Origin: Pseudochelatococcus lubricantis
GTDB taxonomy: Bacteria > Pseudomonadota > Alphaproteobacteria > Rhizobiales > Beijerinckiaceae
Length of the DNA: 64,000 nucleotides
Assembly (NCBI RefSeq): GCF_011762225.1
Contig: NZ_JAASQI010000001.1
Span: 620,001-684,000, forward strand
Direction of reading: 5' to 3'
Both the position numbers and the translations under genes were made by a program. Below are positions 7,637-26,521 of this stretch, in pieces; position 1 is the first letter of the stretch, and every line of letters begins with the position of its first letter. The notes beneath the pieces were generated by a model. The model was given only the letters and a program-made list of their open reading frames with translations. It did not search any database and had not been told where the DNA came from.

Positions 7637-9043
7637 ATGTCTGCAGATCACGCTACCTTCTCCGCCGCTTCCGGCGCTTCGTTTCCGGCGCAAGGCCGCC
7701 GCGCGCTTGCGGTGGTGCTGGCGGCGGGCGAGGGCACGCGCATGCTTTCGCGCCTTCCCAAGATCCTGCACAGGATCGCCAACCGTCCGATCGTCTCCCA
7801 CGTTCTGGACTCCGTCAGGGCGGCGGGCGTGGAATCGGTCGCCGTGGTCGTCGGGCCGGGGCGCGAGGACGTCGCGGCCGAGGTGCGCAGCACCGCACCC
7901 GGAGCCACCATCCACATCCAGCAGGAGCGGCTCGGCACCGCCCATGCCGCGCTGGCGGCGCGCGCCGCGCTCGAAGCCGGGGCTGACGACGTCATCATCG
8001 CCTTCGGCGACACGCCGCTTGTCGAACCGCAGACCTTCGACCGCCTGCGGGCCGTGCTGACAAAGGGCGCCTCGGTCGTCGTACTCGGCTTCGAGGCGAA
8101 GGACCCGACGGGCTACGGACGCCTGCTGATCGAGGACGGCGAACTCGTCGCCATCCGCGAGCATCGGGATGCAAGCGAGGCCGAGCGCGCCATCCGCCTC
8201 TGCAACGGCGGCATCATGGCCATCGCCGGCGCGCACGCGCTTCCCCTGCTGGAGAAGATCGACAACGCGAACGCGAAGGGCGAATACTACCTCACCGACG
8301 TGGTGGCGCATGCCCGCGCCGCCGGCCTGCATGCGAAGGCGCTGGTCGCCGGGGAGGAGGAACTCCTCGGCATCAACGATCGCGCGCAACTCGCCGCGGC
8401 GGAAGCCGTCATCCAGAATCGCCTGCGGCTCGCGGCGTTCCGGGCCGGCGTCACTCTCGTGGCGCCGGAAACCGTGTTCTTTTCCTGGGACACGGCGCTG
8501 GGGCGCGATGTTGTCGTGGAGCCGCATGTGGTCTTCGGCCCTGGCGTCACTGTCGAGGAAGGAGCCGTGGTGCATGCCTTCTCGCATCTTGCCGGCGCGG
8601 TGGTGCGCTCGGGCGCGGATGTCGGGCCGTTCGCGCGGCTGCGTCCCGGCGCGGACGTCGGCACGGGCGCGCATGTCGGCAATTTCGTCGAGATCAAGAA
8701 CGCGAAGCTCGGCGAGGGCGTCAAGGCCGGCCATCTCTCCTATCTGGGCGATGCCGAGATCGGTGCGGGCACCAACATCGGCGCCGGCACGATCACCTGC
8801 AACTACGATGGCTACAGCAAGCACCGCACGCTGATCGGCAGCGGGGCGTTCATCGGCTCGAACTCGTCGCTGGTCGCGCCCGTCAGCATCGGCGACGGTG
8901 CCTACACCGGTTCGGGCTCCGTGGTGACGCGCGATGTGCCCGCCGACGCGCTGGCCCTGGGGCGCGCGCAGCAGGTGGTCAAGGAGGGCTGGGCGGCGAG
9001 ACTGCGCGAGTTCCGCGCCGCCGTGAAAACCGGCAAGTCATAA
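7637..9043 (+). CDS. glmU: bifunctional GlcN-1-P acetyltransferase / GlcNAc-1-P uridyltransferase
   Basis: A 468-residue cytosolic enzyme catalysing the last two steps to UDP-GlcNAc: acetylation of glucosamine-1-phosphate, then UTP-dependent uridylylation. The N-terminal pyrophosphorylase domain carries [10 protein letters not shown] near residue 25 and GDTPLVE. The C-terminal left-handed beta-helix runs from about 265. It includes the hexapeptide repeats and the acetyltransferase block [14 protein letters not shown] with [13 protein letters not shown]. The start was set at 7637, where GGAG precedes the ATG and MSADHATF leads into the domain. It is a little longer than the usual 450-456 residues because of an N-terminal extension. 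glmS follows 84 bp downstream and works earlier in the same pathway. Confidence 0.96.
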
Positions 9044-9127
9044 ACGGTCATCTAACGTGATTTGGGCTGTCCGCTGCGGTTCGGCTAAACATGTGCCGCG
9101 ATTCACTGGCAACGATTGGAAGTGTGC

Positions 9128-11294: not shown

Positions 11295-12407
11295 TCACTC
11301 CGCAAGCTCGGCTGCGACATACTCGGCGATCGCGAGGGAGGCGGTGAGACCGGGGCTTTCGATGCCGAAGAGGTTCACCAGCCCCGGCAGGCCGTGCGTT
11401 GCCGCTCCGTCGATGCGGAAATCGGCTGCGGGCTCGCCGGGTCCCGATATCTTGGGGCGCACGCCGGAGAAGGTGGCCTCCAGCGCATCGGCTGGCAGCG
11501 CCGGCCAGTATTTGCGGATCTCGCGCTCGAAATGCGCCTTGCGCCCGCCGTCGACGCTGTAATCCACCTCCTCGATCCATTCGACATCCGGACCGAAACG
11601 CATGCCGCCGCCGAGGTCCAGCGTGAGATGTACGCCGAGGCCGCCGGGTTCCGGCACCGGATAGACGAGATGCGAGAACACAGGGCGCCCGGGAAGGGCG
11701 TAATAGGTGCCGCGCGCAAAGTAGGCTTTCGGCACATGGGCGGAAGACAGGCCCGCGATCCGCCCCGCCACACGGGGCGCCGCGCAGCCGGCGGCGTTGA
11801 TCAGCAGGCGCGTCGCCAGCGTGAAGCCGTCCCCGGTGGCCGTGTTCACGGTGTCGACTTCGAAACCTGCCGGGGTGGCGCGGATGGCGGTGGCCTCGGT
11901 GTTGAGGCTGAGCATGGCGCCGAGCGCCTCGGCCTCGCCCAGCAGGGCCAGCATGTAGCCGTGGCTGTCGATAATGCCCGTCGACGGTGACATCAGCGCC
12001 GAGACGCAATGCACCTCGGGCTCGATTTCGTGCGTCTCCTCCGCGCTCAGGCGATGCAGATCGTTGACGCCGCAGGCGGCCGCGCGGTGCAGGATTTCGT
12101 CCAGCACCGGCTGCTGGGCAAGATCGGTCGCCACGATGAGCTTGCCGCAGCGGCTGTGCGCGACGCCGTGGCTGGCCGCGAACGCATAGAGCATGTCGCG
12201 ACCGCGCACGCATAGCCGCGCCTTCAGGCTTCCGGGAGTGTAATAGAGCCCGGCGTGGATGACTTCCGAATTGCGCGAACTCGTTTCGGTCCCGAAGGCG
12301 TCGTTGCGTTCGAGAACAACGGTCTCGCGTCCCGCGGCGGCCATGGCGCGCGCCACGGCCAGCCCCACCACACCGGCGCCGATCACAACGCAGTCTACAT
12401 GCTCCAT
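11295..12407 (-). CDS. FAD-dependent oxidoreductase, L-2-hydroxyglutarate oxidase-like
   Basis: A 370-residue flavoprotein of the DAO superfamily. The N-terminal Rossmann motif [19 protein letters not shown] binds FAD, and the block [13 protein letters not shown] near residue 43 is characteristic of LhgO/L2HGDH enzymes. These oxidise L-2-hydroxyglutarate to 2-oxoglutarate, feeding electrons to the respiratory chain. [16 protein letters not shown] and the C-terminal [18 protein letters not shown] agree with that family. The CsiD hydroxylase partner of the glutarate pathway is not in the window. The actual substrate could instead be another 2-hydroxy or 2-amino acid released by the neighbouring hydantoinase-type system. 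The gene ends in the cluster of mosaic repeats and follows livF by 24 bp, so the two are probably co-transcribed. Confidence 0.78.
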
Positions 12408-12431
12408 CGGCTTCCCCTGTTCATCCGGCCG

Positions 12432-13148
12432 TCACGCAGCAGTGTAGCCGAAATAGGCCTGTTCCAGGGCCTCGTCGCTGCCGATTTCGTCGACGCGGGC
12501 GTTCAGGACCACCTGGCCGTTACGCAGGATGTAGATATGTGTCGCAAGATCGAGGATACGAGCCGTCGACTGCTCGACGATCAGCAGCGTCAGGCCGCTT
12601 TCCTTGTTGAGCTGCCGCAGGCTCTCGTAGACCTGGTCGATGATGAGGGGGGCGAGGCCCAGCGACGGCTCGTCGATCATGATGAGCGAGGGTTGCTGCA
12701 GAATGGCGCGGGCGATGGCGAGCTGCTGCTGTTCGCCGCCGGACAGGTGGCCGGCGATGCCCTTGTAGCGTGCGCGCAGGACCGGAAAGGTATCGAGCAC
12801 CCCCTCGACGTCGCGCTGGACGCCCGCCCGATCACCGCGCCCCATCCCGCCGAGGGCGAGGTTTTCTTCCACGCTGAGGGTGCGGAAGATGCTGCGCCCT
12901 TCCGGCACAAGGACGAGGCCTTCGCGGCAGAGCTGCTCCGGGGCCCGGCCCACAATGCTCTTGCCGTTGAAGGTGATGGTGCCGCCGAAGGGCGCCTGCA
13001 GCCCTGAAATGGTTTTCAGCAGAGTCGATTTGCCGGCGCCGTTGGGCCCGACCACGAAGACGATTTCACCCTTGCCGACGGCAAGATCGATTCCCCCGAG
13101 CGCCGTCAGGCGCCCGTACCCGGCGCGAAGGCCTTCCACTTTCAGCAT
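12432..13148 (-). CDS. livF: branched-chain-amino-acid-type ABC transporter ATP-binding protein
   Basis: A 238-residue LivF-class ATPase. Walker A is GPNGAGKST near residue 37, the signature is LSGGEQQQLAIARA, Walker B is LIMIDEPSLGLAP, and an H-loop follows. It belongs with the LivJ, LivG, LivH and LivM homologues encoded divergently at 13372-17651. The start was put at MLKVEGLRAGYG, 13148, with AGGGGA upstream. A longer in-frame extension would run through the operator region. The split of livF onto the opposite strand from the other four genes is unusual and puts the regulatory gap between them. The substrate is not determined. Context suggests a cyclic amide or amino-acid derivative. Confidence 0.9.
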   Translation of the reverse strand: MLKVEGLRAGYGRLTALGGIDLAVGKGEIVFVVGPNGAGKSTLLKTISGLQAPFGGTITFNGKSIVGRAPEQLCREGLVLVPEGRSIFRTLSVEENLALGGMGRGDRAGVQRDVEGVLDTFPVLRARYKGIAGHLSGGEQQQLAIARAILQQPSLIMIDEPSLGLAPLIIDQVYESLRQLNKESGLTLLIVEQSTARILDLATHIYILRNGQVVLNARVDEIGSDEALEQAYFGYTAA

Positions 13149-13234
13149 GTTTTCCCCTGTCTGTCCGGACGCTCCTGCGGCTTGTCGGAGCCGGGGCGTC
13201 TCTCTCGACGATGGTTGGAGCATAGCCTTCAAAT

Positions 13235-13337
13235 CTGTCCACAGTCCACTGTTTGACGCCTCCGGTTGTGAAATTTTTTGTTGACTCGGGGCCGGTGTGC
13301 GTTTCTTCTGTCCACAGTCCACGATTTAAGCGTGGAC
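13235..13337. promoter_or_regulatory. repeated GTCCAC operators in the divergent livF/livJ gap
   Basis: CTGTCCACAGTCCAC occurs twice as an exact direct repeat (13235-13249 and 13308-13322, 73 bp apart). The second copy runs into a perfect 7-bp inverted repeat, GTCCACG and CGTGGAC (13317-13337, spacer ATTTAAG). Identical boxes in a shared divergent promoter suggest a regulator site. The GntR protein encoded at 17677 in the same run is the obvious candidate. Binding is inferred. Confidence 0.6.
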
Positions 13338-13371: not shown

Positions 13372-14574
13372 ATGGGTGCCAAGTTTACACTTGGGCTGGC
13401 GTTCGCTGCTGGCCTGGGGCTCCTGTCCGCTGCGGGAGCGCGGGCTGAGGAGCCGATCCGTATCGGCTTCGCGATCGCGCAATCGGGCTGGCTGTCGAAC
13501 TACGATCTGCCCCCGTTCCGGGCGGCTGTGACGAAAATTGACGAGATCAACGCGGCCGGCGGCCTGCTGGGCAGGCAAATTGCCTATACCGCCGCCGACA
13601 CCAAGACCGACCAGGAGCGTTCCGCCTCCATCGGTTCCGAGATGGTCAACGGCGGCGTGGACCTGCTCGTGGTCTCCTGCGACTACGACTTCGGCGCCCC
13701 GGCGGCACTCGCCGCCAATCAGGCCGGCATCATCACCATCAGCCTCTGCGCCGCCGATCCCAAGATGGGGGTTCAGGGTGTCGGCCCGTATGCCTTTACG
13801 GCAACTTCCGCTGCCCAGGCAGAGGGCGTGGCCATGGCGGAATACGCCCGGACCAAGATGGGGCTCAAGACCGCCTATGTTCTTGAGGATTCCATCATCG
13901 AGTACAACAAGTCCGCCTGCGCGGGCTTCAGGTCCGCCTTCACGGCGGCCGGCGGCGCGGCGGCGATCCTCGGCTCCGACACGTTTCGCAACGAGGATCC
14001 CTCGATCGCGGCGCAGATCACCCGCATAAAGGCGCTACCGGCAGCGCCCGATGCGATCTATCTCTGCTCGGTGACGCCGGGTGGCGCCTCGGCCGTCCGC
14101 CAGTTGCGCGCCGCGGGCATCGACACGCCGATCCTTGCCAGCACTGCCATGGTCGACAACTATTGGCTGAACGCCGTGCCGGGCCTCAAGGACTTCTATC
14201 TGCCCGGTCTGATGTCGCTCTACGGCGACGACCCGCGTCCCGAGATGGCGACCTTTCTGGAGGCATTCCGGAAGCGCTGGAACGAGCCGCCGGTCTCCTC
14301 CTACGCGGTCCTCGGCTACAGCATGATCGAGGCCTGGGCGCGGGCGGTCGAGAAGGCGGGCACGGTGAAGGCCGATCCCGTGCTCGCGGTGATGAACAGC
14401 TTCCGGGACGAGCCGTTCACCGCTGGCCCCACCACTTTCACCGACCAGATGCACATCCAGCTCAACCGCCCCTGGCTCATCATGAAGGTCGAGAACGACT
14501 CCTTCCACGCTGTCGAACTCTTCCGCAACACGATCGTGCCGGACATGAAGCTGCTGTTCCGCGTCGGGCAATGA
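13372..14574 (+). CDS. ABC transporter substrate-binding protein, Leu/Ile/Val type
   Basis: A 400-residue periplasmic binding protein (peripla_BP_6 / LivJ class). A Sec signal peptide covers residues 1-24 (hydrophobic core LGLAFAAGLGLLSAAG, cleavage after ARA). The mature protein starts EEPIRIGFAIAQSGW, typical of the class. It captures the substrate for the LivH-LivM-LivF-LivG transporter. Urea, amide and aromatic binders share this fold, so the Leu/Ile/Val name should not be taken as substrate. It is the first gene of a rightward run through livG, livH, livM, gntR, hyuA and hyuB, preceded by the GTCCAC operators. Confidence 0.88.
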   Translation: MGAKFTLGLAFAAGLGLLSAAGARAEEPIRIGFAIAQSGWLSNYDLPPFRAAVTKIDEINAAGGLLGRQIAYTAADTKTDQERSASIGSEMVNGGVDLLVVSCDYDFGAPAALAANQAGIITISLCAADPKMGVQGVGPYAFTATSAAQAEGVAMAEYARTKMGLKTAYVLEDSIIEYNKSACAGFRSAFTAAGGAAAILGSDTFRNEDPSIAAQITRIKALPAAPDAIYLCSVTPGGASAVRQLRAAGIDTPILASTAMVDNYWLNAVPGLKDFYLPGLMSLYGDDPRPEMATFLEAFRKRWNEPPVSSYAVLGYSMIEAWARAVEKAGTVKADPVLAVMNSFRDEPFTAGPTTFTDQMHIQLNRPWLIMKVENDSFHAVELFRNTIVPDMKLLFRVGQ

Positions 14575-14709
14575 TGCGTTTTCCGCCATCGGCCTGATAA
14601 GTCCAGGTTTGCCGCGCAATCCCTTGCGGTGCGCCTGGTCCCGGTCCCTCCGTCGTCGCCGTATCCGTCTTCCGGGCGAGGGAGAGGTGCATCTTCACGG
14701 AAAGCAGCA

Positions 14710-15468
14710 ATGACGACACAGACCCTTCAGACGCTGGAAGCGCGGGATGTGCATATCTCCTTCGGGGGTATCCGCGCCCTTTCCGGTGTTAACATGAAGC
14801 TCCGGCGCGGCGTCGTCTTCGGACTGATCGGGCCGAACGGCGCGGGCAAGACCACGATGGTCAACGTCCTGTCCGGTTTTCAGCGCCCAACCTCGGGCAC
14901 GGTGAACCTCGACGGTGCCGACGCCTCCGGCATAGGCCCCCAGAAGATGGCGCGCGCCGGGATAGGGCGCTCGTTTCAGGCCGCGCGGCTCTTTCGCGAC
15001 ATGACGGTGGAGCAGAACCTCATGGTCGCGGCCTTCGGCGCCGGATTGCCGGCCGCCCGGGCGGCCCGCGCCGCGCACGAGATCCTGGAATGGATGGGGC
15101 TCGCCGCGGCGGCCGGAAAGCGCTGCGACACGCTTTCATACGGCGACGAGCGCCGGGTGAGCATCGCGCGGGCATTGGCGCTCGACCCGGCCTTCGTTCT
15201 GCTCGACGAGCCCGCCTCGGGCATGAACGACGCCGAGTGCGACGCGCTCATGCATACAATCGCGCATCTTCCGGCGCGCTTCGGCTGCGGCGTGCTGCTC
15301 ATCGAGCACAACATGAAAGTCATCATGGGAGTCTGCGACCGCGTGCATGTGCTCGACGGCGGCCGCAGCCTCGCCGAGGGCACCCCTGTCGAGGTGCAGA
15401 ACGATCCGACTGTCCGGCGCGCCTATCTCGGCGAGAAAGCCGCGCCGAAATCCGCCGCCCTCTTCTAG
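14710..15468 (+). CDS. livG: branched-chain-amino-acid-type ABC transporter ATP-binding protein
   Basis: A 252-residue LivG-class ATPase, the second nucleotide-binding subunit of the Liv-type importer. Walker A is GPNGAGKTT near residue 40. The signature region LSYGDERRVSIARALA replaces the canonical LSGGQ with LSYGD, as is usual in LivG. Walker B is FVLLDEPASG, followed by IEHNM with the switch His. The start at 14710 (MTTQTLQTLEARDVH) fits the family better than an upstream in-frame Met. The TAG stop codon is the first three bases of a mosaic repeat (TAGAGCGCG), so the repeat has defined this C-terminus. Confidence 0.9.
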   Translation: MTTQTLQTLEARDVHISFGGIRALSGVNMKLRRGVVFGLIGPNGAGKTTMVNVLSGFQRPTSGTVNLDGADASGIGPQKMARAGIGRSFQAARLFRDMTVEQNLMVAAFGAGLPAARAARAAHEILEWMGLAAAAGKRCDTLSYGDERRVSIARALALDPAFVLLDEPASGMNDAECDALMHTIAHLPARFGCGVLLIEHNMKVIMGVCDRVHVLDGGRSLAEGTPVEVQNDPTVRRAYLGEKAAPKSAALF

Positions 15469-15654: not shown

Positions 15655-16569
15655 GTGTCCAATATCGTCCAGATTCTGGCGGATGCGATCTCGCTCGGCA
15701 GCCTCTACGCGCTGGTCGCTCTCGCCATCGGGCTGGTCTTCGGGGTGATGAAGCTCATCAACTTCGCCCAGGCCGACTATATCACCATTGGCGCCTATGC
15801 ACTGGTCGTCCCCAGCGCCAGCGTCACACCCGTGCTGTTGCTCGGCGCCCTGCCGGTCGCGCTCATGGTGCCGGGGGTCATGCTCGTGGTGACGCTGCTC
15901 GCGCTCGCCACCGAGCGGCTCGCCTTCCGCCCCATGCGTAACGCCAATCCGGCGACGCTGCTCATCTCGTCCTTCGCGGTGAGCTACTTCCTGCAGCACC
16001 TCGTGATGATGGTCCACACGGGCCGACCGAAATCCGTGGGCATCGGCAACAGCCTTGCGGGGGCGGTCGAGGTACTGGGTGTCCGCCTGCCGGGTAACCA
16101 GATCCTGACCATGGCCGTCGCGGCCGTGCTGCTGGTGGCGCTGGTGTTCTTCCTGAAGAAGACACCCATGGGCATCCAGATGCGCGCCGCAGCGGAGAAC
16201 TTCCAGATGGCGCGTCTCATGGGCGTGCGCGCCAACCGCGTCATCGCCGTGGCGTTCGTCATGAGCGGCATCATGGCGGCAACGGTCTCGCTGCTGCTCG
16301 TGATCCAGACTGGCACGCTCGATATCCGCATGGGCCTGATGCCGGTGATCTTCGCCTTCTTCGCCACCGTCATCGGCGGCATGGGCTCGCTTCCCGGAGC
16401 GGCGCTCGGCGGCTTCATCGTGGGCTTCATCTCGGTGCTGCTGCAGGCATTCCTGCCGGCCGAGCTGCGCGCCTTCCGCGATGCGGGCGTCTTCCTGCTG
16501 GTGATTCTGATCCTGCTGGTGCGGCCCCAGGGCCTGATTGTTGACCGCGCCGCAAAGGAGCGTGTGTGA
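15655..16569 (+). CDS. livH: branched-chain-amino-acid-type ABC transporter permease
   Basis: A 304-residue integral membrane protein of the LivH class, about eight hydrophobic segments, forming half of the translocation pore. Family features include LGSLYALVALAIGLVFGVMKL near the N-terminus and the coupling region GIQMRAAAENFQMARLMG, followed by the GGMGSLPGAALGG loop. It starts at GTG (15655) with AGGAG 8 nt upstream. Its TGA overlaps the livM ATG by one base (TGATG), indicating coupled translation. Confidence 0.9.
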   Translation: MSNIVQILADAISLGSLYALVALAIGLVFGVMKLINFAQADYITIGAYALVVPSASVTPVLLLGALPVALMVPGVMLVVTLLALATERLAFRPMRNANPATLLISSFAVSYFLQHLVMMVHTGRPKSVGIGNSLAGAVEVLGVRLPGNQILTMAVAAVLLVALVFFLKKTPMGIQMRAAAENFQMARLMGVRANRVIAVAFVMSGIMAATVSLLLVIQTGTLDIRMGLMPVIFAFFATVIGGMGSLPGAALGGFIVGFISVLLQAFLPAELRAFRDAGVFLLVILILLVRPQGLIVDRAAKERV

Positions 16570-17651
16570 TGTCTGTTTCGCCCCTTTCCCCCCATGCCCC
16601 GGCGACGACGGACCGGGGCCCGGCCGAGCGCCTGCTCCGCTGCTGGTTTCCGGTCCTCGCCCTGATCGTGCCGCTGTTCGCCGTCGCGATCGTGAGCGAT
16701 CTCGCGGGCTCGGTGATGATCCAGCGCACGGTCACGGAGGCGCTGATCCGCATTGTCGTGGTGGTCGGCATCTATGTCTTCGTCGGCAACACGGGTGTCA
16801 TCTCCTTCGGCTCGGTGACCTTCATGGCCATCGCCGCCTATGCAACCGGCTGGCAGACCTGCTGCGAGGCGCTCAAGCCGATTACGATGCCGGGCCTGCC
16901 CGAGTTCCTGCGCGACCACAGCTATTCGCTGTTTCCGGCGGCGCTCGCCGCGGTGGCGCTGGCGGCGCTGGCGGCTTTCGTCACCGGCCTGGTCCTGATG
17001 CGGATGAGCGGCCTTGCCGCTTCCATATCCACGCTCGCCGTACTGTTCATCGTGAACGTGGTCTATTCCAACTGGGATAGCGTCACGATGGGAACCGCCT
17101 CGATGGTCGGCCTGCCGCGCTACGTGACGCTCTGGGTCGCGCTCGGGGCGGCGGTCCTCGCCATCGTGGTGGCATGGCTCTACCAGTCGTCCCGCTTCGG
17201 GCTCGCGGTGCGCGCCACCCGTGCCGACGAGGTGGCGGCGGCGGCCTGCGGCGTGTCGCTCTACCGGGCGCGTCTGCTGGCCTTCACCCTGTCTGGAGCG
17301 CTCATGGGACTGGGCGGTGTGCTGACGGCGCATTTCCTCGGCACGGTCTCGATCAACTCCTTTTTCCTGAAGCTCACCTTCATCGCGCTCGCAATGCTGG
17401 TCGTGGGTGGCATGGGAAGCCTCGCCGGCGCGGTGGCGGGCGTGGTCGTGACGAGCGTCGTGATCGACGTCTTCCGCCGCCTGGAAAGCGGCTTCTCCAT
17501 CGCGGGCGCGAACTGGTCGCTTCCCGCGGGCACCCAGGAGCTGGTCCTGGCGGGCGTGATGCTGCTGATCCTCATCTACCGCAAAGATGGGCTCATGGGC
17601 GGGCGCGAGTTCCATTGGCCCAGCAATAGGGGCAAGATCGCCGGAACGTAG
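16569..17651 (+). CDS. livM: branched-chain-amino-acid-type ABC transporter permease
   Basis: A 360-residue LivM-class permease with about ten hydrophobic stretches, partner of LivH. Seen are VGNTGVISFGSVTFMAIAAY, the EAA-like cytoplasmic loop RATRADEVAAAACGVSLYR, and VVGGMGSLAGAVAGVVVTS. ATG at 16569 is preferred over the adjacent GTG at 16566 because AAGGAG at 16555-16560 is then optimally spaced. It ends 25 bp before the GntR gene in the same run. Confidence 0.9.
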   Translation: MSVSPLSPHAPATTDRGPAERLLRCWFPVLALIVPLFAVAIVSDLAGSVMIQRTVTEALIRIVVVVGIYVFVGNTGVISFGSVTFMAIAAYATGWQTCCEALKPITMPGLPEFLRDHSYSLFPAALAAVALAALAAFVTGLVLMRMSGLAASISTLAVLFIVNVVYSNWDSVTMGTASMVGLPRYVTLWVALGAAVLAIVVAWLYQSSRFGLAVRATRADEVAAAACGVSLYRARLLAFTLSGALMGLGGVLTAHFLGTVSINSFFLKLTFIALAMLVVGGMGSLAGAVAGVVVTSVVIDVFRRLESGFSIAGANWSLPAGTQELVLAGVMLLILIYRKDGLMGGREFHWPSNRGKIAGT

Positions 17652-17676: not shown

Positions 17677-18411
17677 ATGAGCCAGACCCTTGGAAGCGAA
17701 GGACGAATTTCGGCCGAGTACAGCGCGGCGCGCCTCGACAACCGCATGCTCTCGGACCAGGTGGCGAGCTTCCTGATTCGCGAGATCATGCTCGGCAAGC
17801 TGAAGCACGGCCAGCGCATCAACGAGGCGGAGATCGCGCGTCATCTCGGCATCAGCCGCAACCCCATCCGCGAGGCGGTGCGGCGGCTGGAGGAGCGGGG
17901 TGTGCTGGTCTCGGCGCCGCGCCGCGGCACCTTCGTGCGTACCTTCACGAAGAAGGACATCGACGACATCTTCGCATTCCGGCTGCTGGTCGAGAACTTC
18001 GCGCTCGAAAACGGCCTGGCCGCGATGACGGACGCGCATCTGCGCGAGATCACCTCCTATGCCGTGGCCATGGAAGACGCCGCGCGCAACAACGACGAAA
18101 TCGCGCTGGTGGAGAACGATCTCGCCTTTCACCTCGCGCTCTGCAAGCTCTCCGACAATCACCAGACCCTGCATGCCTTTCTCAATATCCAGGCCGAGCT
18201 GCAGTTGGTGATCACCATGGCTGAACAGCGTTTCGAGACGCTGGAGGAAGCGGCGACGGACCATTGGCCCGTGGTGCGCGCGCTGGAGACGCGCGACCTC
18301 GACAAGGCCCGCACGGCCCTTCGCGAACACATCGAGGATTCCTGGAGCCGGCTGGCGGACGTCTACGAGCGACATGATGCCGGCTCAACACCACCACCCA
18401 AGCCAGACTGA
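17677..18411 (+). CDS. GntR-family regulator with FCD domain
   Basis: A 244-residue DNA-binding regulator. The winged helix-turn-helix spans about residues 28-95, with GQRINEAEIARHLGISRNPI and REAVRRLEERG as the recognition region. The C-terminal FCD all-helical ligand-binding domain (about 105-225) carries ENDLAFHLALCKLSDNH, where His can ligate a metal. FadR/VanR-type proteins of this class usually repress a nearby catabolic operon until an acidic ligand binds. It sits between the transporter and the hydantoinase genes, so it likely controls them through the GTCCAC boxes upstream of livJ. Its 3' end lies only 13 bp before the hyuA start. Confidence 0.9.
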   Translation: MSQTLGSEGRISAEYSAARLDNRMLSDQVASFLIREIMLGKLKHGQRINEAEIARHLGISRNPIREAVRRLEERGVLVSAPRRGTFVRTFTKKDIDDIFAFRLLVENFALENGLAAMTDAHLREITSYAVAMEDAARNNDEIALVENDLAFHLALCKLSDNHQTLHAFLNIQAELQLVITMAEQRFETLEEAATDHWPVVRALETRDLDKARTALREHIEDSWSRLADVYERHDAGSTPPPKPD

Positions 18412-18424: not shown

Positions 18425-20449
18425 GTGAGCACAATCATCGGCATCGATATCGGCGGGACTTTCACGGACTTCGTGTCCTATGATACCGACACCGGCCATA
18501 TCGAGAACTGGAAGAACCTCACCACCCCCGCCGAGCCGATCGTCGGCGTCATGGAAGGACTGGGCAAGCTCGACGATCTCGGCGTCGTCAGCAAAGCGCG
18601 CCTCGGCACCACCATCGCCACAAATGCCCTGCTGACGCGCCGCGGCGCCAAGGTCGCCTACATCACCACGCAGGGGTTCCGCGACGTGCCCTTCATCCAG
18701 CGTGGCGACCGGCGCAGCCACTACGACATCACCTGGATCAAGACGCGCCCGCTCGTCGCCCGCGCCGACTGCCACGAGGTCGCGGAGCGGCTGACCGCCA
18801 AGGGCGCGGTGCACACGCCTCTCGACGAGGAGGCGGTGCGCGAGCTTGCGGCCAGGATCCGCGCCGACGGCACGATCGAGGCCGTGGCGGTCTGTACGCT
18901 CTTTTCCTACATCGACCCGGGCCATGAGCAGCGCATCCGCGAAATCCTGGCGGAGGAACTGCCCGGCATGCCGATCTCGATTTCCTACGACGTGTTGCCG
19001 AAATGGAAGGAATACGACCGCGCCTCGACCACCATCGCCGACGCCTATCTCAAGCCGGTCGTTTCCGAGAACTTCCGCGAGATGAAGGCCCGTTTCGCGC
19101 AGGCGGGCATCGGCAGCAAGGTCGGTGTGATCAAGTCGAACGGCGGCGAGGCCACGCTCGCGGGGGCCGCCGACGCGCCGGTGCAGATAACTCTTTCCGG
19201 CCCCACGGGCGCCGTGGTCGCCACGCGCATCATGTCGGAACTCACCGGCATTCCGAACCTCGTCGTCTTCGACATGGGCGGCACCTCCACCGACTGCTCC
19301 ACGGTGGTCGCCGGCAAGGAGCACGTCACCACGAGCTTCGAGATCGAATGGGGCATCCCGATCCAGATACCCATGATCGACATTCACACCATCGGCGCGG
19401 GCGGCGGCTCGATCGCATGGATCGATAAGGGCGGCATGCTGCGCATGGGGCCGCAATCGGCTGCCGCCGTGCCGGGCCCTGCCTGCTACGGCCGCGGCGG
19501 CACCGACGCGACCGTGACCGATGCCAACGTGGTTCTGGGCCGCATTTCGCCCGACAACTTTCTCGGTGGCCAGATGAAGCTGGACGCCGCCGCCGCCCGC
19601 GCGGCCGTCGCGCGCGTGGCCGAAAAGCTCGGCATGGACGTGGACGAGTGCGCCTTCGCCATGGTCCAGATCGCCAACAACAACATGCTGGGCGCGCTGC
19701 GCGCTGTCCTTCTGCAGCGCGGCCTCGACCCGCGTGATTTCACGCTCGTCGCTTCCGGCGGCGCGGGGCCGGTCCACATCTGCGATCTCATGGAGATCGC
19801 GGGCATTCCGCAGGGCCTTGTCCCGAACTATCCCGGCCAGTTCTCGGCTTTCGGTTTCATCATGACCGACGCTCGCGTCGACCGGCATCGCACCGTGCAG
19901 CAAATCTCGAAATACTTCGACGGGGAGCGCGCCACCCGCGCCATGACCGAGTTGGTCGAGGGGGCGATCGATGAGCTGAAATCGCAGGGCTACACGCAGC
20001 GCATCGAGATCCACCGCTCGATTGAGGCGCGCTACATGGGGCAGAACCACGAACTCGAACTCTCCTTTCCGGCCGACGAGTTCAGCGAGGACAACATCGC
20101 CGACATGTGGGAACGTTTCCACAGGGAGCATGAGGCCCGCTTCGGCTTCTCGATCCCCGGCGAGACTATCGAGACGGTGAATCTCAAGGTCGTGGCTGTA
20201 GCCGTTTCCGACAAGCCGGAGATGCGCGAGCTGCCGGTGACGGACGCGCCGCCGCAGCCTGCCTCGCGCCGCAAGGTGCACTTCGCCGACGGCTGGCACG
20301 AGGTGCCGGTCTACGACCGCGCGACCTTCCGGCAGGGAGACAGGATCGCCGGCCCCGCCGTGGTCGAGGAAAGCGCCTCCGTGACCATCCTTCAGCCCGG
20401 CCAGGCGCTTGGCGTCGACCGCATCGGCAACCTGATCATCTCCGCCTGA
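18425..20449 (+). CDS. hydantoinase/oxoprolinase subunit A (HyuA family)
   Basis: A 674-residue ATP-binding subunit of an ATP-dependent amidohydrolase. Family members hydrolyse N-methylhydantoin, 5-oxoproline or lactams, or act as carboxylases (acetone, acetophenone). The actin-like ATPase core shows IDIGGTFTDFVSYD near residue 7, the DMGGTSTDCS phosphate loop near 284, and GAGGGSIAWID. The GTG start at 18425 with AAGGA upstream is preferred over an ATG overlapping gntR. hyuB follows after 14 bp. Which member of the family this is cannot be decided from sequence. The Liv importer and the downstream aminotransferase favour a cyclic amide. Confidence 0.88.
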   Translation: MSTIIGIDIGGTFTDFVSYDTDTGHIENWKNLTTPAEPIVGVMEGLGKLDDLGVVSKARLGTTIATNALLTRRGAKVAYITTQGFRDVPFIQRGDRRSHYDITWIKTRPLVARADCHEVAERLTAKGAVHTPLDEEAVRELAARIRADGTIEAVAVCTLFSYIDPGHEQRIREILAEELPGMPISISYDVLPKWKEYDRASTTIADAYLKPVVSENFREMKARFAQAGIGSKVGVIKSNGGEATLAGAADAPVQITLSGPTGAVVATRIMSELTGIPNLVVFDMGGTSTDCSTVVAGKEHVTTSFEIEWGIPIQIPMIDIHTIGAGGGSIAWIDKGGMLRMGPQSAAAVPGPACYGRGGTDATVTDANVVLGRISPDNFLGGQMKLDAAAARAAVARVAEKLGMDVDECAFAMVQIANNNMLGALRAVLLQRGLDPRDFTLVASGGAGPVHICDLMEIAGIPQGLVPNYPGQFSAFGFIMTDARVDRHRTVQQISKYFDGERATRAMTELVEGAIDELKSQGYTQRIEIHRSIEARYMGQNHELELSFPADEFSEDNIADMWERFHREHEARFGFSIPGETIETVNLKVVAVAVSDKPEMRELPVTDAPPQPASRRKVHFADGWHEVPVYDRATFRQGDRIAGPAVVEESASVTILQPGQALGVDRIGNLIISA

Positions 20450-20463
20450 GAGGAGCCCGCACC

Positions 20464-22161
20464 ATGGATTTCGTGACGATGAACATCCTCGATTCGGCGA
20501 TGGTATCCATCTGCCGGGAAATGGGGATCACCCTCATGAAGACGTCCTACTCGACGATCTTCAACGAAGCGCTCGACTTCACCTGCGGTCTTGCCGACAT
20601 GAGCGGCGACATGATCGCCGTGGCCGACTACTGCCCGGCCCAGATCGGCGGCATGCCGCTTCTGGTGAAGTCCTGCCTCAAGGAAATCCCGATCGCCGAG
20701 CTGGAGGAAGGGGATATCATCCTCCATAACGATCCCTATCGGGGCGGCCTGCATACGCCGGAACACACTTTCTTCAAACCGATCTTCGTCGAGGGCGAGG
20801 TCATGGGCTTTGCAGTCGCCATCGGCCACATCGCGGAGGTCGGCGGCATGGCGCCCGGCGGTTTCTGCGGCGAGGCGACGGAGATCTTTCAGGAAGGCCT
20901 GCGCATCCCCCCGGTCAAGATCGTCAAACGCGGCGTCGACAACGTCGAGGTGTGGAAGCTGCTGCTGGCGAACGTGCGCACCCCGCGCGTGAACTACGGC
21001 GACCTCAAGGCCCTTATCGCGGCCGTCGATCTCGGGGAAAGGCAGATGCGCGGCATCTACGCCAAGTACGGCAAGGAGAAGATCCGCGAGACCGTCGCCG
21101 ACCTGCTGCTCTACTCCGAGCGCCGCATGCGCGCCGAACTGGAGGCCATTCCCGACGGCATCTATTCCTTCCACGATTTCGTGGAAAGCGACGGCGTCGA
21201 CTCTGACAGGCACTATCGTATCCAGGTCGAGGTTCACAAGAAGGGGGGCTCGATCATCGTCGACTACCACGGCTCCTCGCCACAGGCGGCGGGTCCGATC
21301 AATGCGACGCTGGGCGTTGCGACGTCGGCGGCCTACAACGCCGTGCTGCACATGACCGACCCGACGATCCCGCGCAACTCCGGCTGCTTCCGCCCGATCG
21401 AGGTCATGGCCCCTCCCGGCACCATCGTGAACGTGGACTTCCCAGCGCCCGAGGTGGGCGGCAACACGGAGACGCATCCGCGCATCGTCGGCACCATCCT
21501 GGGCGCCATGCACAGTGCCGTGCCGAACCGTGTCATGGCGGCGGAAGGCGCCACGCACTGCAATTTCGTCTTCGGCGGGGTCGATGCGGAAACGGGCGAG
21601 TACTTCGCCTGCTACGATCTCGAAGGCGTGGGCTGGGGCGGCCGCGCATTCGCGGACGGTAACGACGCGGTCGACTCCATCAACGGCAACTGCCGCATCA
21701 CGCCGGTGGAGGTTTACGAGACCCGCTTCCCGTGGCTCATCGAAGGCCTCGCCTTCAACGTCGACTCCTGCGGGGCGGGCGAGTACCGCGGGGGCGTGGG
21801 CTATACCAAGCAGATGCTCTGCGTGAACAGGGAAATCATCTGCTCGCAGATGACGGACCGGCACGTGCTGCCCCCGTGGGGGCTTGAGGGCGGCCTTGAG
21901 GGCGGGTGCGGCGCCACGCTGGTGCAGAAGGCCGGCCGTGACGATTGGCAGACGATGCGCGATGCCTACGGCAAGCCGTCGACCAGCCGCTATTCGAACG
22001 TCGCCATCAAGGAAGGCGATCGCGTACGTCTCGTCATGCCCGGGGGCGGCGGCTACGGCAATCCGCTTGCGCGCGACCGCGCGGCCGTCGCCCACGACCT
22101 GCGCGAAGGCTACATCTCACCCGAGGCTGCCGGGAAACTCTATGGGTATCGGGAGGTATAA
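20464..22161 (+). CDS. hydantoinase/oxoprolinase subunit B (HyuB family)
   Basis: A 565-residue partner of the HyuA subunit, carrying the second half of the amidohydrolase active site. Family blocks are SYSTIFNEALDFTCGL, the strongly conserved HNDPYRGGLHTPEH near residue 90, GNTETHPRIVG and the glycine-rich end VMPGGGGYGNP. Length is typical for separate B subunits. AGGAG precedes its ATG, and it ends 3 bp before the small zinc-ribbon gene. With that protein, HyuA and HyuB may form a three-subunit enzyme. Confidence 0.88.
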   Translation: MDFVTMNILDSAMVSICREMGITLMKTSYSTIFNEALDFTCGLADMSGDMIAVADYCPAQIGGMPLLVKSCLKEIPIAELEEGDIILHNDPYRGGLHTPEHTFFKPIFVEGEVMGFAVAIGHIAEVGGMAPGGFCGEATEIFQEGLRIPPVKIVKRGVDNVEVWKLLLANVRTPRVNYGDLKALIAAVDLGERQMRGIYAKYGKEKIRETVADLLLYSERRMRAELEAIPDGIYSFHDFVESDGVDSDRHYRIQVEVHKKGGSIIVDYHGSSPQAAGPINATLGVATSAAYNAVLHMTDPTIPRNSGCFRPIEVMAPPGTIVNVDFPAPEVGGNTETHPRIVGTILGAMHSAVPNRVMAAEGATHCNFVFGGVDAETGEYFACYDLEGVGWGGRAFADGNDAVDSINGNCRITPVEVYETRFPWLIEGLAFNVDSCGAGEYRGGVGYTKQMLCVNREIICSQMTDRHVLPPWGLEGGLEGGCGATLVQKAGRDDWQTMRDAYGKPSTSRYSNVAIKEGDRVRLVMPGGGGYGNPLARDRAAVAHDLREGYISPEAAGKLYGYREV

Positions 22162-22164
22162 GAC

Positions 22165-22374
22165 ATGAAATTCTCTCAGAACGGCTTCTATATCGAAAGC
22201 TACAGCAAGTGCCCGAACTGCGGCCAGCTGATGTACGAGGATGCGGAGGCGGATCGCGCGCGCCGTGTCACTCACGAAGGCAAGACCTATTGTTCCCGGC
22301 GCTGCGTCGACTGGAAGCTCGACCGCGAGGCGCGTCATGCTGCTGCGGAGAAGCTTGCGCAGCACGCTCCCTGA
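22165..22374 (+). CDS. small zinc-ribbon protein, likely third subunit of the HyuAB enzyme
   Basis: A 69-residue protein with four Cys in zinc-ribbon spacing, Cys16-x2-Cys19 (CPNC) and Cys43-x3-Cys47 (CSRRC). A basic helical tail of Arg/Lys/His/Ala follows. GGAGG lies upstream of its ATG, and only 3 bp separate it from the hyuB stop, so it is translated with HyuB. Acetone carboxylase, whose large subunits are HyuA/HyuB relatives, has a small metal-binding gamma subunit. By analogy this could be a structural or metal-binding third subunit, but that is inference. An RNA-binding or transcription-related ribbon is the alternative. Confidence 0.75.
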   Translation: MKFSQNGFYIESYSKCPNCGQLMYEDAEADRARRVTHEGKTYCSRRCVDWKLDREARHAAAEKLAQHAP

Positions 22375-22418: not shown

Positions 22419-22512
22419 GTCGTTTCCCGTCTCATCTGGCCGGATGCACGGCGATCTTAGCGACGCATGTTCCATGCGCCGTGCGCTTCGGCTCGTCCCG
22501 AGGACTTCTATC

Positions 22513-23817
22513 ATGACGACCAATTCAGAATTGACGCAACGGCGGATCGACGCCATCCCGACCGGCCTCTCGCGGCACCTCGACGTCTTCATCAGCCGCG
22601 CCGAGAACGCGGAATTGTGGGATGTCGAGGGCAACCGCTACATAGACTTCGCCTCCGGCATCGCCGTGACCAATACCGGCCACCGTCACCCTCGTGTGCT
22701 GGCTGCCGTGCGCGCGCAGCTCGATTCCTTCACGCACACCTCGTTCCAGACGACGCCCTACGCCAGCTATGTCGAGGTTTGCGAGCGGCTGAACGCGCTG
22801 GTGCCCGGGGACTTCGCCAAGAAGACCTATCTCGTTTCCACCGGCGCCGAAGCCGTCGAGAACGCGGTCAAGATCGCCCGCGCGGCCACCGGACGCCCGG
22901 CCTTCGTTGCTTTCGCCGGCGCTTTCCACGGCCGCACGCTGATGGCGACGACGCTGACCGGCAAGACGACGCCCTACAAGTACGGCTTCGGGCCCCTGGT
23001 GCCCGACGTCTTCCATGTTCCCTTTCCGAGCGCCTATCACGGTGTAAGCGTCGAACAGTCGCTGGCTGCGCTCGACTTCCTGTTCAGGACAAGCGTTCAT
23101 CCCGAGCGTGTGGCGGGCATCATCGTCGAGCCGGTGCAGGGTGAGGGCGGCTTCAATCCGGCCCCGCCCGAGTTCCTGCAGGCGCTGCGCAAGGTCTGCG
23201 ATACCCACGGCATCCTGCTGATCGCCGACGAAATCCAGACGGGCTTCGGCCGGACGGGCCGCATGTTCGCCATCGAGCACGCGGGCATCGCCGCGGATCT
23301 CGTGACCTTGGCGAAAGGTCTCGGGGGCGGTTTTCCCATCGCCGGCGTCACGGGCCGCGCCGACGTGATGGAGAAGGTGCCGCCGGGTGGCGTGGGCGGG
23401 ACGTTCGCCGGCAGCCCCTTGTCCTGCGCCGCCGCGCTCGCCGTGCTCGACGTCATCGAGGAGGAGGGTCTCGTCGCGCGTGCAGCCGACATCGGCAGCA
23501 GGATTCGCACTGTTCTGGATGGCTGGCAGGGCTCCAACGCCTTCGCGGCCTGCATCGGCGATATCCGCAACCTGGGCTCCATGGCAGCCCTTGAGCTTGT
23601 GCACGATCGGGACGGCGAGCGCCCGTGGCCGGAACTGACACGCTTGCTGACCCGAAAGGCCGCGGCCAACGGTCTCGTCCTGCTGACCTGTGGCGTTCAC
23701 GGCAATGTAATCCGGCTGCTCCCGCCGCTCACGATTCCGGACGCGATTCTCGACGAAGGGATCGCGATCATGGAACGCAGCCTGCATGAAGCGCTGCAAG
23801 AGCTGTCCGTGCAATGA
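22513..23817 (+). CDS. gabT: class III aminotransferase, 4-aminobutyrate transaminase-like
   Basis: A 434-residue PLP enzyme transferring the omega-amino group of GABA (or a related omega-amino acid or diamine) to 2-oxoglutarate, giving succinate semialdehyde. Seen are TGAEAVENAVKIARAATGRP and AFHGRTLMATTLTGK. LIADEIQTGFGRTG carries PLP-contacting Asp238, and TLAKGLGGGFPIAGV carries the Schiff-base Lys268. The start at MTTNSELTQRR (22513) has GAGGA upstream. A longer frame from 22444 is less likely. It follows the hyu block by 138 bp and is convergent with puuB. In this setting it would consume GABA made by putrescine breakdown. PatA/SpuC-type diamine activity is possible. Confidence 0.9.
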   Translation: MTTNSELTQRRIDAIPTGLSRHLDVFISRAENAELWDVEGNRYIDFASGIAVTNTGHRHPRVLAAVRAQLDSFTHTSFQTTPYASYVEVCERLNALVPGDFAKKTYLVSTGAEAVENAVKIARAATGRPAFVAFAGAFHGRTLMATTLTGKTTPYKYGFGPLVPDVFHVPFPSAYHGVSVEQSLAALDFLFRTSVHPERVAGIIVEPVQGEGGFNPAPPEFLQALRKVCDTHGILLIADEIQTGFGRTGRMFAIEHAGIAADLVTLAKGLGGGFPIAGVTGRADVMEKVPPGGVGGTFAGSPLSCAAALAVLDVIEEEGLVARAADIGSRIRTVLDGWQGSNAFAACIGDIRNLGSMAALELVHDRDGERPWPELTRLLTRKAAANGLVLLTCGVHGNVIRLLPPLTIPDAILDEGIAIMERSLHEALQELSVQ

Positions 23818-23857: not shown

Positions 23858-25138
23858 CTAGATGCCTAGCCGGTCGCGCAGCCCGTACCACCAGGCGCCG
23901 AGAACCGTGAGCGGCACCCGCAGGGCGCGACCGCCGGGGAAGGGGACATAGGGCAGGTTCGCGAAAGCGTCGAAGCGCGTGGCATCGCCGTCGATGGCCT
24001 CCGCTATCAGCCTGCCGGCGAGGTGGGTGCTGGTGACGCCATGGCCGCTGCAGCCGTGCGCGAAGTAAAGGTTGTTGCCGATGCGGCCGAGGTGCGGAAT
24101 GCGGGTGAGCGTCAGCGCAAAGTTGCCGCTCCACAGATAGTCGAAACGGACGTTCCGCAGCGCCGGGAAGACCTTCGCGAAATGCGGCCGCAGCCGCGCC
24201 TCGATGTCGGCGGGTTCGTCGCCGCCATAGACGATGCCGCCGCCGAACAGGATGCGGTGATCGGCTGTCGGCCGGTAGTAGTCGAGCACGTAGTTGGCAT
24301 CCTCCACCGCCGTGAGCGTCGGAAACAGGTCTCTGATGGTCGCTTCGCCAAGCACCTCCGTGGTCACGACCTGGGTGGAGACCGGCATTACCTTGTCCTC
24401 AAGGAACGGGATGACGCCGTTGAGATAGGCATTTCCGCACGCCACGGCGAAGGTGGCCCGCACTTCGCCGGTCGCTGTCGCCACCACGGCCTTGCCGCCT
24501 TCTGTCCGCACGCCGATCACGGGGGATTGCTCGAAAATCCTGCCGCCAAGAGATTCGACGGCGGCGGCCTCGCCGAGCGCGAGGTTGAGCGGGTGGATGT
24601 GCCCGCCGCGGTGGTCGATGAGGCCGCCGACGTAGCAATCGGCCTTCACTTGCCGGCGCAGGCCCTCCCTGTCCAGCAGTTCGAGCCCGTCGTGGCCGAA
24701 GCCCGCCCAGTGGTCGCGGACATGCGCGAGTTCGCGCAACTGCTTGGCGTTGAAGGCCGCGAAGACGTTGGTGGGGCGATAGTCGCAGGCGATGCCGTAC
24801 TTTTCGATCCGTTCGCGGATTATGTCCCCGCCTTCGAGCGACATGGCGCCCAGCGCCTTCGCCGCTGCGTTGCCATAGCGCCAGGCGATGTTTTCGAGAT
24901 CGCGGCTGTAGCCGTTGACGATCTGCCCGCCGTTGCGGCCGGACGCGCCCCAGCCCACTTTCGCGGCTTCGAGGACAACCACCCTGTACCCGCGCTCGGA
25001 TAGATGAAGTGCGGTCGACAGGCCCGTATAGCCCGCGCCGATGACACAGACATCGGTTTCGATGCTGCCTTCCAGCGAGTTGCGCAAGGGGAACGGGTTT
25101 GCCGTCGCGGCGTAGTAGGAGGCAATATGGCTGGTCAT
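23858..25138 (-). CDS. puuB: FAD-dependent gamma-glutamylputrescine oxidase
   Basis: A 426-residue DAO-family flavoprotein close to PuuB, which oxidises gamma-glutamylputrescine to the aminobutyraldehyde with release of ammonia and H2O2. FAD motif VIGAGYTGLSTALHLSERG begins near residue 31. GWGASGRNGGQIVNGYSRD and the C-terminal FAHGCSGHGVTSTHLAGRLI are characteristic of the PuuB group. It follows puuA by 12 bp on the same strand, the first two steps of the Puu pathway in order. The start has no rival in-frame Met nearby. Confidence 0.88.
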   Translation of the reverse strand: MTSHIASYYAATANPFPLRNSLEGSIETDVCVIGAGYTGLSTALHLSERGYRVVVLEAAKVGWGASGRNGGQIVNGYSRDLENIAWRYGNAAAKALGAMSLEGGDIIRERIEKYGIACDYRPTNVFAAFNAKQLRELAHVRDHWAGFGHDGLELLDREGLRRQVKADCYVGGLIDHRGGHIHPLNLALGEAAAVESLGGRIFEQSPVIGVRTEGGKAVVATATGEVRATFAVACGNAYLNGVIPFLEDKVMPVSTQVVTTEVLGEATIRDLFPTLTAVEDANYVLDYYRPTADHRILFGGGIVYGGDEPADIEARLRPHFAKVFPALRNVRFDYLWSGNFALTLTRIPHLGRIGNNLYFAHGCSGHGVTSTHLAGRLIAEAIDGDATRFDAFANLPYVPFPGGRALRVPLTVLGAWWYGLRDRLGI

Positions 25139-25150
25139 CGAAGTTCCGTT

Positions 25151-26521
25151 TCAGAGCACGCCGAGATACGAGGAGTATTCCGCATCGGTGACGCGGCGCG
25201 CCATCTTGTTGCGCTCCTGCCATTTCACCGCGAGAAACACCTTGTGGAAGTCCACGCCGAGGCTGTCGCGCAGCAGCGGACTGTCGCGGAAAAGGTCGAT
25301 CGCCCAGTCCCAGTCGCTCGGCAGCGGCTTGTTGACGGAAGAGCGCACGTAGGCGCTGCCCTGCACCGGCTCGCCGGGGTCACACTTGTTCTCCAGCCCG
25401 TAGAGCACGCCGGCTATGATGGCAGCGAGCACCAGATAGGGGTTGCCATCGGCGCCGGCGACGCGGTGCTCGAAACGCCGTGCCTTCGGGCTGCTGTTGG
25501 GGATGCGCACGGAGGCGGTGCGGTTCTCGTAACCCCAGTTGCCGTAGGTGGGCGCATGGGTGCCGGCCTGAAAGCGGCGGTATCCGTTGAGGTTGGGCGC
25601 GAAGACGAGCATCGACGGCCCCATGAATTCGAGCACGCCGCCCACCGCGTGTCGCAGGGCATCGGACCCGCGCTCGGTCCCGTCGTCGAAGATGTTGTTT
25701 CCCTCCGCGTCGAGCGCGCTGCAATGGATGTGGAAACCCGATCCGGACTGGCTGCCGTAGGGCTTGGGCATGAAGGTGGCGTGCAACTGGTGACGCCGGG
25801 CGACGCTGCGCACGATACGCTTGAAAAGCACCGCCTGATCGGCCGCGAGCACCGGATCATCGATATGTTCGAGGTTGATCTCGAACTGTCCTGGCCCATT
25901 CTCGACGATGCAGGTGTCGCCAGGGACATCCTGGGCCGCGCAGGCATCCCGGATCTCCGTGAAGACACTGGAAAACTCGTCGAGTTCATCCATCGAGTAG
26001 AGCTGAGAGACTTCAATAGGGTAGCCGGATTCCGGCGCGGCCGGGGGGCGTGGACGGCCTGTCTTCAGTACATCGCCGTTCATCAGATAGAATTCCAGCT
26101 CCGTGGCCACGACGAGCCTGAGCCCTATTGTCCGGGCGCGTTCTACCTGGTGCACCAGCACCTGGCGCGGGTCCACCATGAAGGGCGTGCCATCAGGGTT
26201 GTTCATGGAGAGCAGCATTTGTGCCCTCGGGCGCTGCGCCCACGGCACGGAGGTCAGCCCCGAGCCGCATGGCATGCAGGAGCCGTCGCTGTCACCGGTT
26301 TCCCATACGAGGCCGTTCTCCGGAACGTCCTCTCCCCAGATGTCGAGGGCGAGCGCAGAACGTGGCAGCTTCATGCCGCTTTCGTAGAGTCTGTCGAGGC
26401 TGGAGATGGGAACGCGCTTGCCGCGCAGGATGCCGTTCAGGTCGGAGATCAGCAGGTCGACCTCCTCTATGTTCTCGTTCCGACGCAGGAATGCGTGCGC
26501 CTGCTCAAGGTCCAATGACAC
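25151..26521 (-). CDS. puuA: gamma-glutamylputrescine synthetase (glutamine synthetase family)
   Basis: A 456-residue ATP-dependent ligase joining glutamate to putrescine, the entry step of the Puu pathway. The GS fold is clear: VDLLISDLNGILRGKRV at the N-terminus and NGPGQFEINLEH (metal-binding Glu). GSGFHIHCSA and NRTASVRIPNS follow, then RFEHRVAGADGNPYLVLAA for ATP and glutamate. It lacks the adenylylation loop region of true GlnA and is the length of PuuA. It is the first gene of the puuA-puuB operon. Paired TGATCA boxes lie 100-140 bp upstream and suggest control by the divergently encoded GntR protein. Confidence 0.87.
   Translation of the reverse strand: MSLDLEQAHAFLRRNENIEEVDLLISDLNGILRGKRVPISSLDRLYESGMKLPRSALALDIWGEDVPENGLVWETGDSDGSCMPCGSGLTSVPWAQRPRAQMLLSMNNPDGTPFMVDPRQVLVHQVERARTIGLRLVVATELEFYLMNGDVLKTGRPRPPAAPESGYPIEVSQLYSMDELDEFSSVFTEIRDACAAQDVPGDTCIVENGPGQFEINLEHIDDPVLAADQAVLFKRIVRSVARRHQLHATFMPKPYGSQSGSGFHIHCSALDAEGNNIFDDGTERGSDALRHAVGGVLEFMGPSMLVFAPNLNGYRRFQAGTHAPTYGNWGYENRTASVRIPNSSPKARRFEHRVAGADGNPYLVLAAIIAGVLYGLENKCDPGEPVQGSAYVRSSVNKPLPSDWDWAIDLFRDSPLLRDSLGVDFHKVFLAVKWQERNKMARRVTDAEYSSYLGVL

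Follow-up and report, generated by a model that had tools for sequence, protein, structure and literature searches.

Why should a hydantoinase-like gene pair be followed, only three bases on, by a gene for a cysteine-rich protein of 69 residues? The question is raised by a locus in a 64,000-nucleotide stretch of the Pseudochelatococcus lubricantis genome (contig NZ_JAASQI010000001.1, positions 620,001 to 684,000 of the forward strand), hereafter the window. Three genes were confirmed to lie head to tail on its plus strand: hyuA (18425-20449), encoding an ATP-binding subunit of the ASKHA type (674 residues); hyuB (20464-22161), encoding the metal-site subunit (565 residues); and the small gene, here called Z (22165-22374), whose product is a proposed third subunit. 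Z is conserved with, and in places fused to, a distinct clade of HyuB proteins in which a metal-ligand position has changed from Asp to Glu. The reading we favor, with a probability of roughly 0.6, is that Z is a dedicated accessory subunit bound to HyuB in a distinct clade of ATP-dependent lactam or cyclic-amide hydrolases.

The hyuA frame opens with a GTG at 18425, with an in-frame ATG further upstream at 18374, and its product spans the Hydant_A_N, Hydantoinase_A and Hydant_A_C domains with both phosphate motifs intact (D8-IGGTFTD and D283-MGGTSTD). HyuB belongs to Hydantoinase_B, and all of these Pfam matches lie far over their cut-offs; its ligand positions are D38, H97, E100 (Asp in relatives) and H122. 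Z begins with an ATG at 22165, and its stop codon ends at 22374. Its four cysteines are arranged as CxxC...CxxxC (C16-x2-C19 and C43-x3-C47), and it matches no Pfam or NCBIfam model over the cut-off. The initial annotation had placed the small gene 3 bp after hyuB and considered the two translationally coupled. The spacing was reproduced (gac separates the hyuB stop from the Z start), and coupling is plausible, since a GGGAGG run (22151-22156) lies within the 3' end of hyuB, 8 bases 5' of the Z start.

Z was searched alone, independent of HyuAB. Within the window's family, 12 of 298 genomes gave a match, nine of them strong and three weak, as did 19 of 72,556 plasmid records, and a search from a ten-sequence alignment yielded 52 loci in a collection of 84,980 species; a scan of viral contigs gave one match, of 11 residues. 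One of the 52 loci (L071), a chance-like match of 24 residues without HyuA or HyuB, was left out. Four weak matches were excluded before counting, G009, G031 and G257 in the family sample and G516 in a class-level sample, three of them with internal stops, as was L002 in the window's own genome (E 0.07); the match in G085, which extends beyond a single stop (its own, close to the C-terminus), was kept. Hosts of Z include Rhizobiaceae, Methylobacterium, Geminicoccaceae, Caballeronia, Bacillaceae and one Verrucomicrobiota bin. The motif KCxxCGxLx[YF]...[YF]CSxxC is intact in all 51 relatives, and the ratio of nonsynonymous to synonymous substitution rates (dN/dS) was finite, at 0.05-0.52, in nine of ten ungapped pairs, with dS saturated in the tenth. 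Z is therefore conserved beyond chance. Same-strand HyuA and/or HyuB of the same clade (at least 45% identity) accompany it in 50 of the 51 loci, in keeping with the earlier expectation that the small gene would be conserved beside hyuAB; the sole locus without them is a 4.5-kb contig holding Z and a binding-protein gene. Gene orders were A-B-Z (17 loci), Z followed by ATP-binding cassette (ABC) genes and then A (14) and A-[Z::B], in which Z is fused to HyuB (14), with A-Z-B (3), Z-A-B (1) and B-Z (1) being rarer. In Methylobacterium-type loci, such as L018 (3064-7046 and 14287-16150), two unrelated hyuA genes flank one Z, and of these two genes just the distal one is a member of the Z clade.

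Co-occurrence was then scored genome by genome in two samples: a family sample (298 genomes), searched with a single Z sequence that a very divergent Z could escape, and a class sample (385 genomes), searched with a 36-row Z alignment. HyuB was present at E ≤ 1e-110 in 18 genomes of the family sample, nine at 774 bits or more (58-100% identity) and nine at 371-384 bits. The higher-scoring nine were exactly the nine with Z at E ≤ 1.1e-9, and no Z was found at E ≤ 0.01 in any of the nine others. In the class sample, 27 genomes had HyuB, with scores of at least 804 bits in eight and of 371-442 bits in 19; Z at E ≤ 1.1e-24 occurred in exactly those eight, none at E ≤ 0.001 occurred in the 19, and a further genome (G516) held a weak Z match containing stops. 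Because the window's genome counts in both samples, the distinct genomes with clade HyuB number 16, and all 16 also have Z, as compared to 0 of 28 with only the next-nearest HyuB. No scored HyuB fell between 442 and 774 bits. Hydantoinase gene clusters have been described as consisting of only two genes, with the small subunit absent from any hydantoinase complex (PMC5214803); a two-gene arrangement does not describe this clade, given Z in 16/16 sampled genomes and the 50/51 linkage.

The strongest single clue to the role of Z is its fusion to the N-terminus of HyuB, found in 14 of the 51 loci. The fused proteins are 634-664 residues long, and the HyuB portion starts about 70-85 residues in, after a linker. 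Fused rows occupy three places in the HyuB tree (a group of 12 rows, L055 beside A-Z-B rows, and L048, a long branch), so the fusion likely arose in separate events. We infer that Z encoded as a separate protein would also contact HyuB.

The 59 HyuB rows of the clade group together on a long stem (Shimodaira-Hasegawa-like approximate likelihood ratio test 100). For HyuA, a branch with a support of 100 separates the 40 clade rows from the rest, and acetone carboxylase forms a separate, distant long branch. Both trees were built quickly and drew long-branch warnings for comparison rows; the HyuB tree omitted rows scoring below 240 bits and four more that were partial or duplicate, and the HyuA tree omitted near-copies. 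In an alignment of 108 HyuB rows, with clade rows defined by a tblastn score of at least 600 bits and many near-copies among them, position 100 is Glu in 63/63 clade rows and Asp in 45/45 others, and position 125 divides the rows likewise (Glu in 63/63, Asp in 45/45). All 108 rows have His at positions 97 and 122, and position 38 is Asp wherever a row has a letter, three truncated rows having none. Asp at position 100 is also present in three aligned solved relatives and in two acetone carboxylases. In the HyuB subunit of caprolactamase, the metal ligands are Asp41, His99, Asp102 and His124; replacement of any one by Ala abolished activity, and His99, Asp102 and His124 are termed fully conserved (PMC8453981). 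The clade thus departs from the Asp-His-Asp-His tetrad of the hydantoinase branch at the third ligand position, Glu100, and retains the other three, with the HyuA phosphate-site residues unchanged and both the ASKHA motifs and Hydantoinase_B membership in place. The clade is thus doubly marked, by Z and by a changed metal ligand.

Scores place HyuA and HyuB on the hydantoinase/oxoprolinase/lactamase side of the superfamily, as opposed to that of the acetone and acetophenone carboxylases (Acx and Apc). The best solved relatives of HyuA are N-methylhydantoinase (7hk5, 430 bits) and the caprolactamase subunit CapA (6yra, 407 bits), versus 288 and 238 bits for the carboxylases; the corresponding HyuB scores are 317 and 245 versus 126 and 72 bits. 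The NCBIfam caprolactamase models gave 536 and 318 bits for HyuA and HyuB, both under the cut-off of 1000. N-methylhydantoinase (7hk5 group), the best solved relative of both subunits, differs in that one chain spans A and B and the ligand position is Asp; it did not turn up in PDB sequence searches with Z. The caprolactamase CapAB of Pseudomonas jessenii shares with HyuABZ the HyuA and HyuB homologues, the ATP motifs and three of the four metal ligands, but it is described as having two subunits, without Z, and has Asp102 where the clade has Glu (PMC8453981). Its cluster also includes a class-III omega-aminotransferase and a dehydrogenase (PMC6061476).

What kind of protein is Z? The initial annotation called it a zinc ribbon, which is probably the wrong fold. 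In the structure model (mean predicted local distance difference test, pLDDT, 88), a short-strand knuckle at CPNCG is followed by a hairpin and by YCS-xx-C, which starts a long helix (45-66), and Z is predicted to be a treble-clef-like finger with four cysteines, which would bind zinc. Among 36 aligned members, these four cysteines are invariant and no His is. The least certain block of the model, residues 1-10 (mean 63), lies inside the strongly conserved MKFSxNGxYIE, and such uncertainty is as expected for an N-terminal segment that would fold on HyuB. Weak sequence matches were obtained to the PP0621 family (20 of the 36 members, best E 1.4e-4) and to TRASH_ZMYM4, a TRASH/MYM-type finger (5 of 36, best E 9.8e-5). 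TRASH domains act in metal trafficking and sensing. Weak fold matches to eL24, YacG and MYM-TRASH were not significant (Foldseek E > 0.8; Z score 3.9 or less). TRASH/MYM (FCS), PP0621, YacG and eL24 have, like Z, a CxxC knuckle and then YCSxxC at the helix start, but they share no partner with Z. PDB searches gave no convincing relative, whether with Z alone (best E 0.0023, a consensus C2H2 finger) or with the Z profile (best E 0.06).

These features suggest the following scheme. HyuA would bind ATP and activate the amide carbonyl (perhaps also bicarbonate), and the activated intermediate would move to the HyuB metal site, where water would open the ring. Z, as a small treble-clef-like zinc finger, would dock near the HyuB N-terminus through its conserved first 13 residues and stabilise or shape the metal centre or the assembly, Glu replacing the usual Asp ligand in the clade. 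Because it has a dedicated Z, sometimes fused, together with an altered metal-binding site, the Z-bearing lineage probably differs from its textbook relatives in assembly or working. The earlier suspicion of a reaction other than that of a textbook hydantoinase was a fair one, since a metal-site residue of the clade is changed.

The trio had initially been proposed to form either a three-subunit amidohydrolase or a carboxylase. Conservation, co-occurrence and fusions favor the third subunit; a true ketone or amide carboxylase, in which Z would replace the gamma subunit of acetone or acetophenone carboxylase, is improbable. HyuA and HyuB share a superfamily with these carboxylases, and acetone carboxylase (AcxABC, 5m45/5svb) has a small four-cysteine partner, which mainly contacts the HyuB-type subunit and binds Zn through Cys74, 76, 124 and 127, and the role of which is called not clear (PMC5543143). 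Acetophenone carboxylase (ApcABCDE, 5l9w) also has a small Cys4 gamma subunit, but with additional alpha-prime and epsilon subunits (PMC5214803). However, AcxABC gamma is a Yippee-like protein of 168 residues with other cysteine spacing and no detectable homology to Z, and the Acx metal site is reversed relative to the clade, with Glu as the first ligand and Asp as the third. When Z was tried as a gamma homologue, hhalign gave a probability of 17% over 13 knuckle columns (CPxCG) only. Since gamma matches the acetophenone carboxylase small subunit (E 2.4e-5) but only these 13 columns of Z, Z would be an analogue of acetone carboxylase gamma and not a detectable homologue. PF08882 is absent from the Pfam matches of Z and of the 36 members, and no carboxylase gamma subunit was seen among the best 50 fold rows of each Foldseek and VIA search, where an absent row proves nothing. 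Both large subunits score far higher against N-methylhydantoinase and caprolactamase, and neither tree nor scores place them on the separate, long Acx branch. The open reading frames (ORFs) between 14000 and 27000 include one hyuA and one hyuB, with no gamma match and so no Apc-type alpha-prime/gamma set, and aminotransferase neighbours point to amine release. The genome also has an acetone carboxylase gamma of its own: a PF08882 gene follows AcxA-like and AcxB-like frames elsewhere on contig 1 (L170, 62500-70000), so two systems coexist in one cell.

Several observations weigh against a dedicated subunit. Four genomes of the family labelled f82 have three or four clade HyuB genes, some in tandem, and a single Z gene; with 3-4 HyuB candidates scored per genome, these copy numbers are lower bounds. 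By gene count, Z is therefore not strictly 1:1 with HyuB, and in these genomes it may be shared among the copies or be dispensable for some. Importer genes of the ABC type separate Z from hyuA by 5-6 kb in 14 of the 51 loci. In genome G661, the 10.3-kb contig that carries Z (L130) lacks clade HyuA and HyuB and has just a HyuA of 35% identity; contig L129, 9.3 kb long and ending just 3' of hyuB, carries clade hyuAB but shows no Z. A structure model of the fusion (pLDDT 67, without pairwise error) shows no docking of Z. Dependence between Glu100 and Z cannot be demonstrated because both traits are clade-wide. As for the substrate, an aminotransferase gene turned up in 38 of 62 clade loci (61 with Z) versus 2 of 21 comparison loci, in a comparison with reference proteins taken from clade loci, many near-copies and unequal stretch lengths; it omitted L033 and the f82 contigs L128, L130, L131, L133-L135, L137 and L139, and kept L129, on which no Z is seen. 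Other subclades instead have sugar-type importers, CoA-transferase or aldolase neighbours. Because neighbour genes differ among subclades, the substrate probably differs by lineage, which suggests that no single substrate fits the whole clade.

The pairing of several clade HyuB genes with one Z in the four f82 genomes makes a shared maturation or metal-delivery factor the serious main rival. Such a metallochaperone would load or guard the HyuB metal and act catalytically, not as a permanent subunit, and we give it a real but distinctly minor chance. The weak TRASH/MYM-type matches and the clade-wide change of a HyuB metal ligand would suit a protein that handles metal. Against it, the fusions tie Z to the enzyme 1:1 in the loci that have them, and among the 36 aligned members Z has just four invariant cysteines, with no invariant His. 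In three of the four f82 genomes, Z adjoins clade hyuA or hyuB. It is very unlikely that Z instead controls transcription or translation of the operon and is simply carried along with it. Z is small and zinc-finger-like, and its gene directly follows a GntR gene in the Methylobacterium-type order, but it is in places fused to the enzyme, the same finger occurs beside varied regulators (GntR or LacI) and importers, and it has no confident match to any DNA-binding family. A dedicated, HyuB-bound subunit of a cyclic-amide hydrolase thus remains the reading that we prefer. On the minus strand of three f82 contigs (L128 7394-12934, L131 669-4312 and L135 8892-12353), one hyuA is followed by two or three clade hyuB genes in tandem, with one Z gene found per genome, and mixed HyuB complexes are possible in such genomes.

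A bolder proposal, which we hold tentatively and at less than even odds, is that HyuABZ is a fourth branch of the hydantoinase/ketone-carboxylase superfamily, alpha-beta-zeta, with an independently acquired small Cys4 subunit bound to the HyuB-type chain and coupled to a metal centre re-tuned from Asp to Glu, and with chemistry or metal use that sets it apart from the hydantoinases and lactamases known so far. In that case one superfamily would have recruited zinc-finger subunits twice, from unrelated sources, which would hint at a shared need for such a component. The lack of a small zinc subunit in hydantoinases has been taken to mean that ATP-dependent amide activation can do without it, and gene content has been used to sort hydantoinases from carboxylases (PMC5214803). 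A hydantoinase-side clade with its own four-cysteine protein, fused in places, breaks this gene-content rule and offers a clean test of the subunit's role. The open-access literature, which leaves most subscription journals outside, was searched for a previous description of small zinc proteins accompanying hydantoinases, also from the side of acetophenone carboxylase and of 2-pyrrolidinone hydantoinases; none appeared among the matches listed, and one candidate (PMC8305020) was, in the passages checked, unrelated. Z together with Glu100 provides an annotation handle for vaguely named hydantoinase genes, and the clade may offer a lead for the degradation of lactams and nylon monomers.

What does the neighbourhood suggest about the substrate? 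The initial annotation saw no other partner for the small gene, which is not quite right, as an ABC importer, a GntR gene and often an aminotransferase gene lie nearby in the window and in relatives. All are on the plus strand in the window. The importer comprises a periplasmic binding protein of the branched-chain-amino-acid type (13372-14574), also found in the A-B-Z relatives that reach that far (L014, L015, L029); an ATP-binding protein (BCA_ABC_TP_C, 14629-15468), whose ORF start is perhaps too far upstream; and two permeases. The first permease (15655-16569) has syntenic counterparts of 78-84% identity in the alphaproteobacterial A-B-Z relatives showing it and 66% in Caballeronia, and the second (16566-17651), called as an ORF, corresponds to an annotated branched-chain amino acid permease in a syntenic Sulfitobacter record. 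A GntR/FCD-family regulator (17677-18411) precedes hyuA, and most A-B-Z relatives likewise have this type of GntR gene ahead of hyuAB. Downstream lies a class-III aminotransferase of the gamma-aminobutyric acid (GABA) type (22510-23817; TIGR00700, 550.5 bits, cut-off 506.65). A 70-71% identical gene directly follows Z in Shinella and Mesorhizobium relatives, and in many close relatives Z is directly followed by an aminotransferase gene, or by genes for succinate-semialdehyde dehydrogenase and another aminotransferase. The best guess for the window is a lactam such as 2-pyrrolidone. The importer would probably supply a lactam or cyclic amide, to be opened to an omega-amino acid, and conversion of 2-pyrrolidone to GABA would suit the GABA-type aminotransferase, much as the product of caprolactamase goes to an omega-aminotransferase.

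Further genes of the window lie on either side of this block. Beside the GABA aminotransferase gene, on the minus strand (23858-26521), a flavin adenine dinucleotide (FAD) oxidoreductase of the DAO family is paired with a glutamine-synthetase-like gene, an arrangement that resembles the gamma-glutamylputrescine pathway. Divergent from the binding-protein gene (11298-13322, minus strand) are another DAO-family oxidoreductase and an ABC ATPase, which may be the importer's second ATPase. Farther upstream, on the plus strand (7565-10954), an NTP-transferase/hexapeptide gene is followed by a SIS/glutamine-amidotransferase gene, forming a GlmU-GlmS-like pair.

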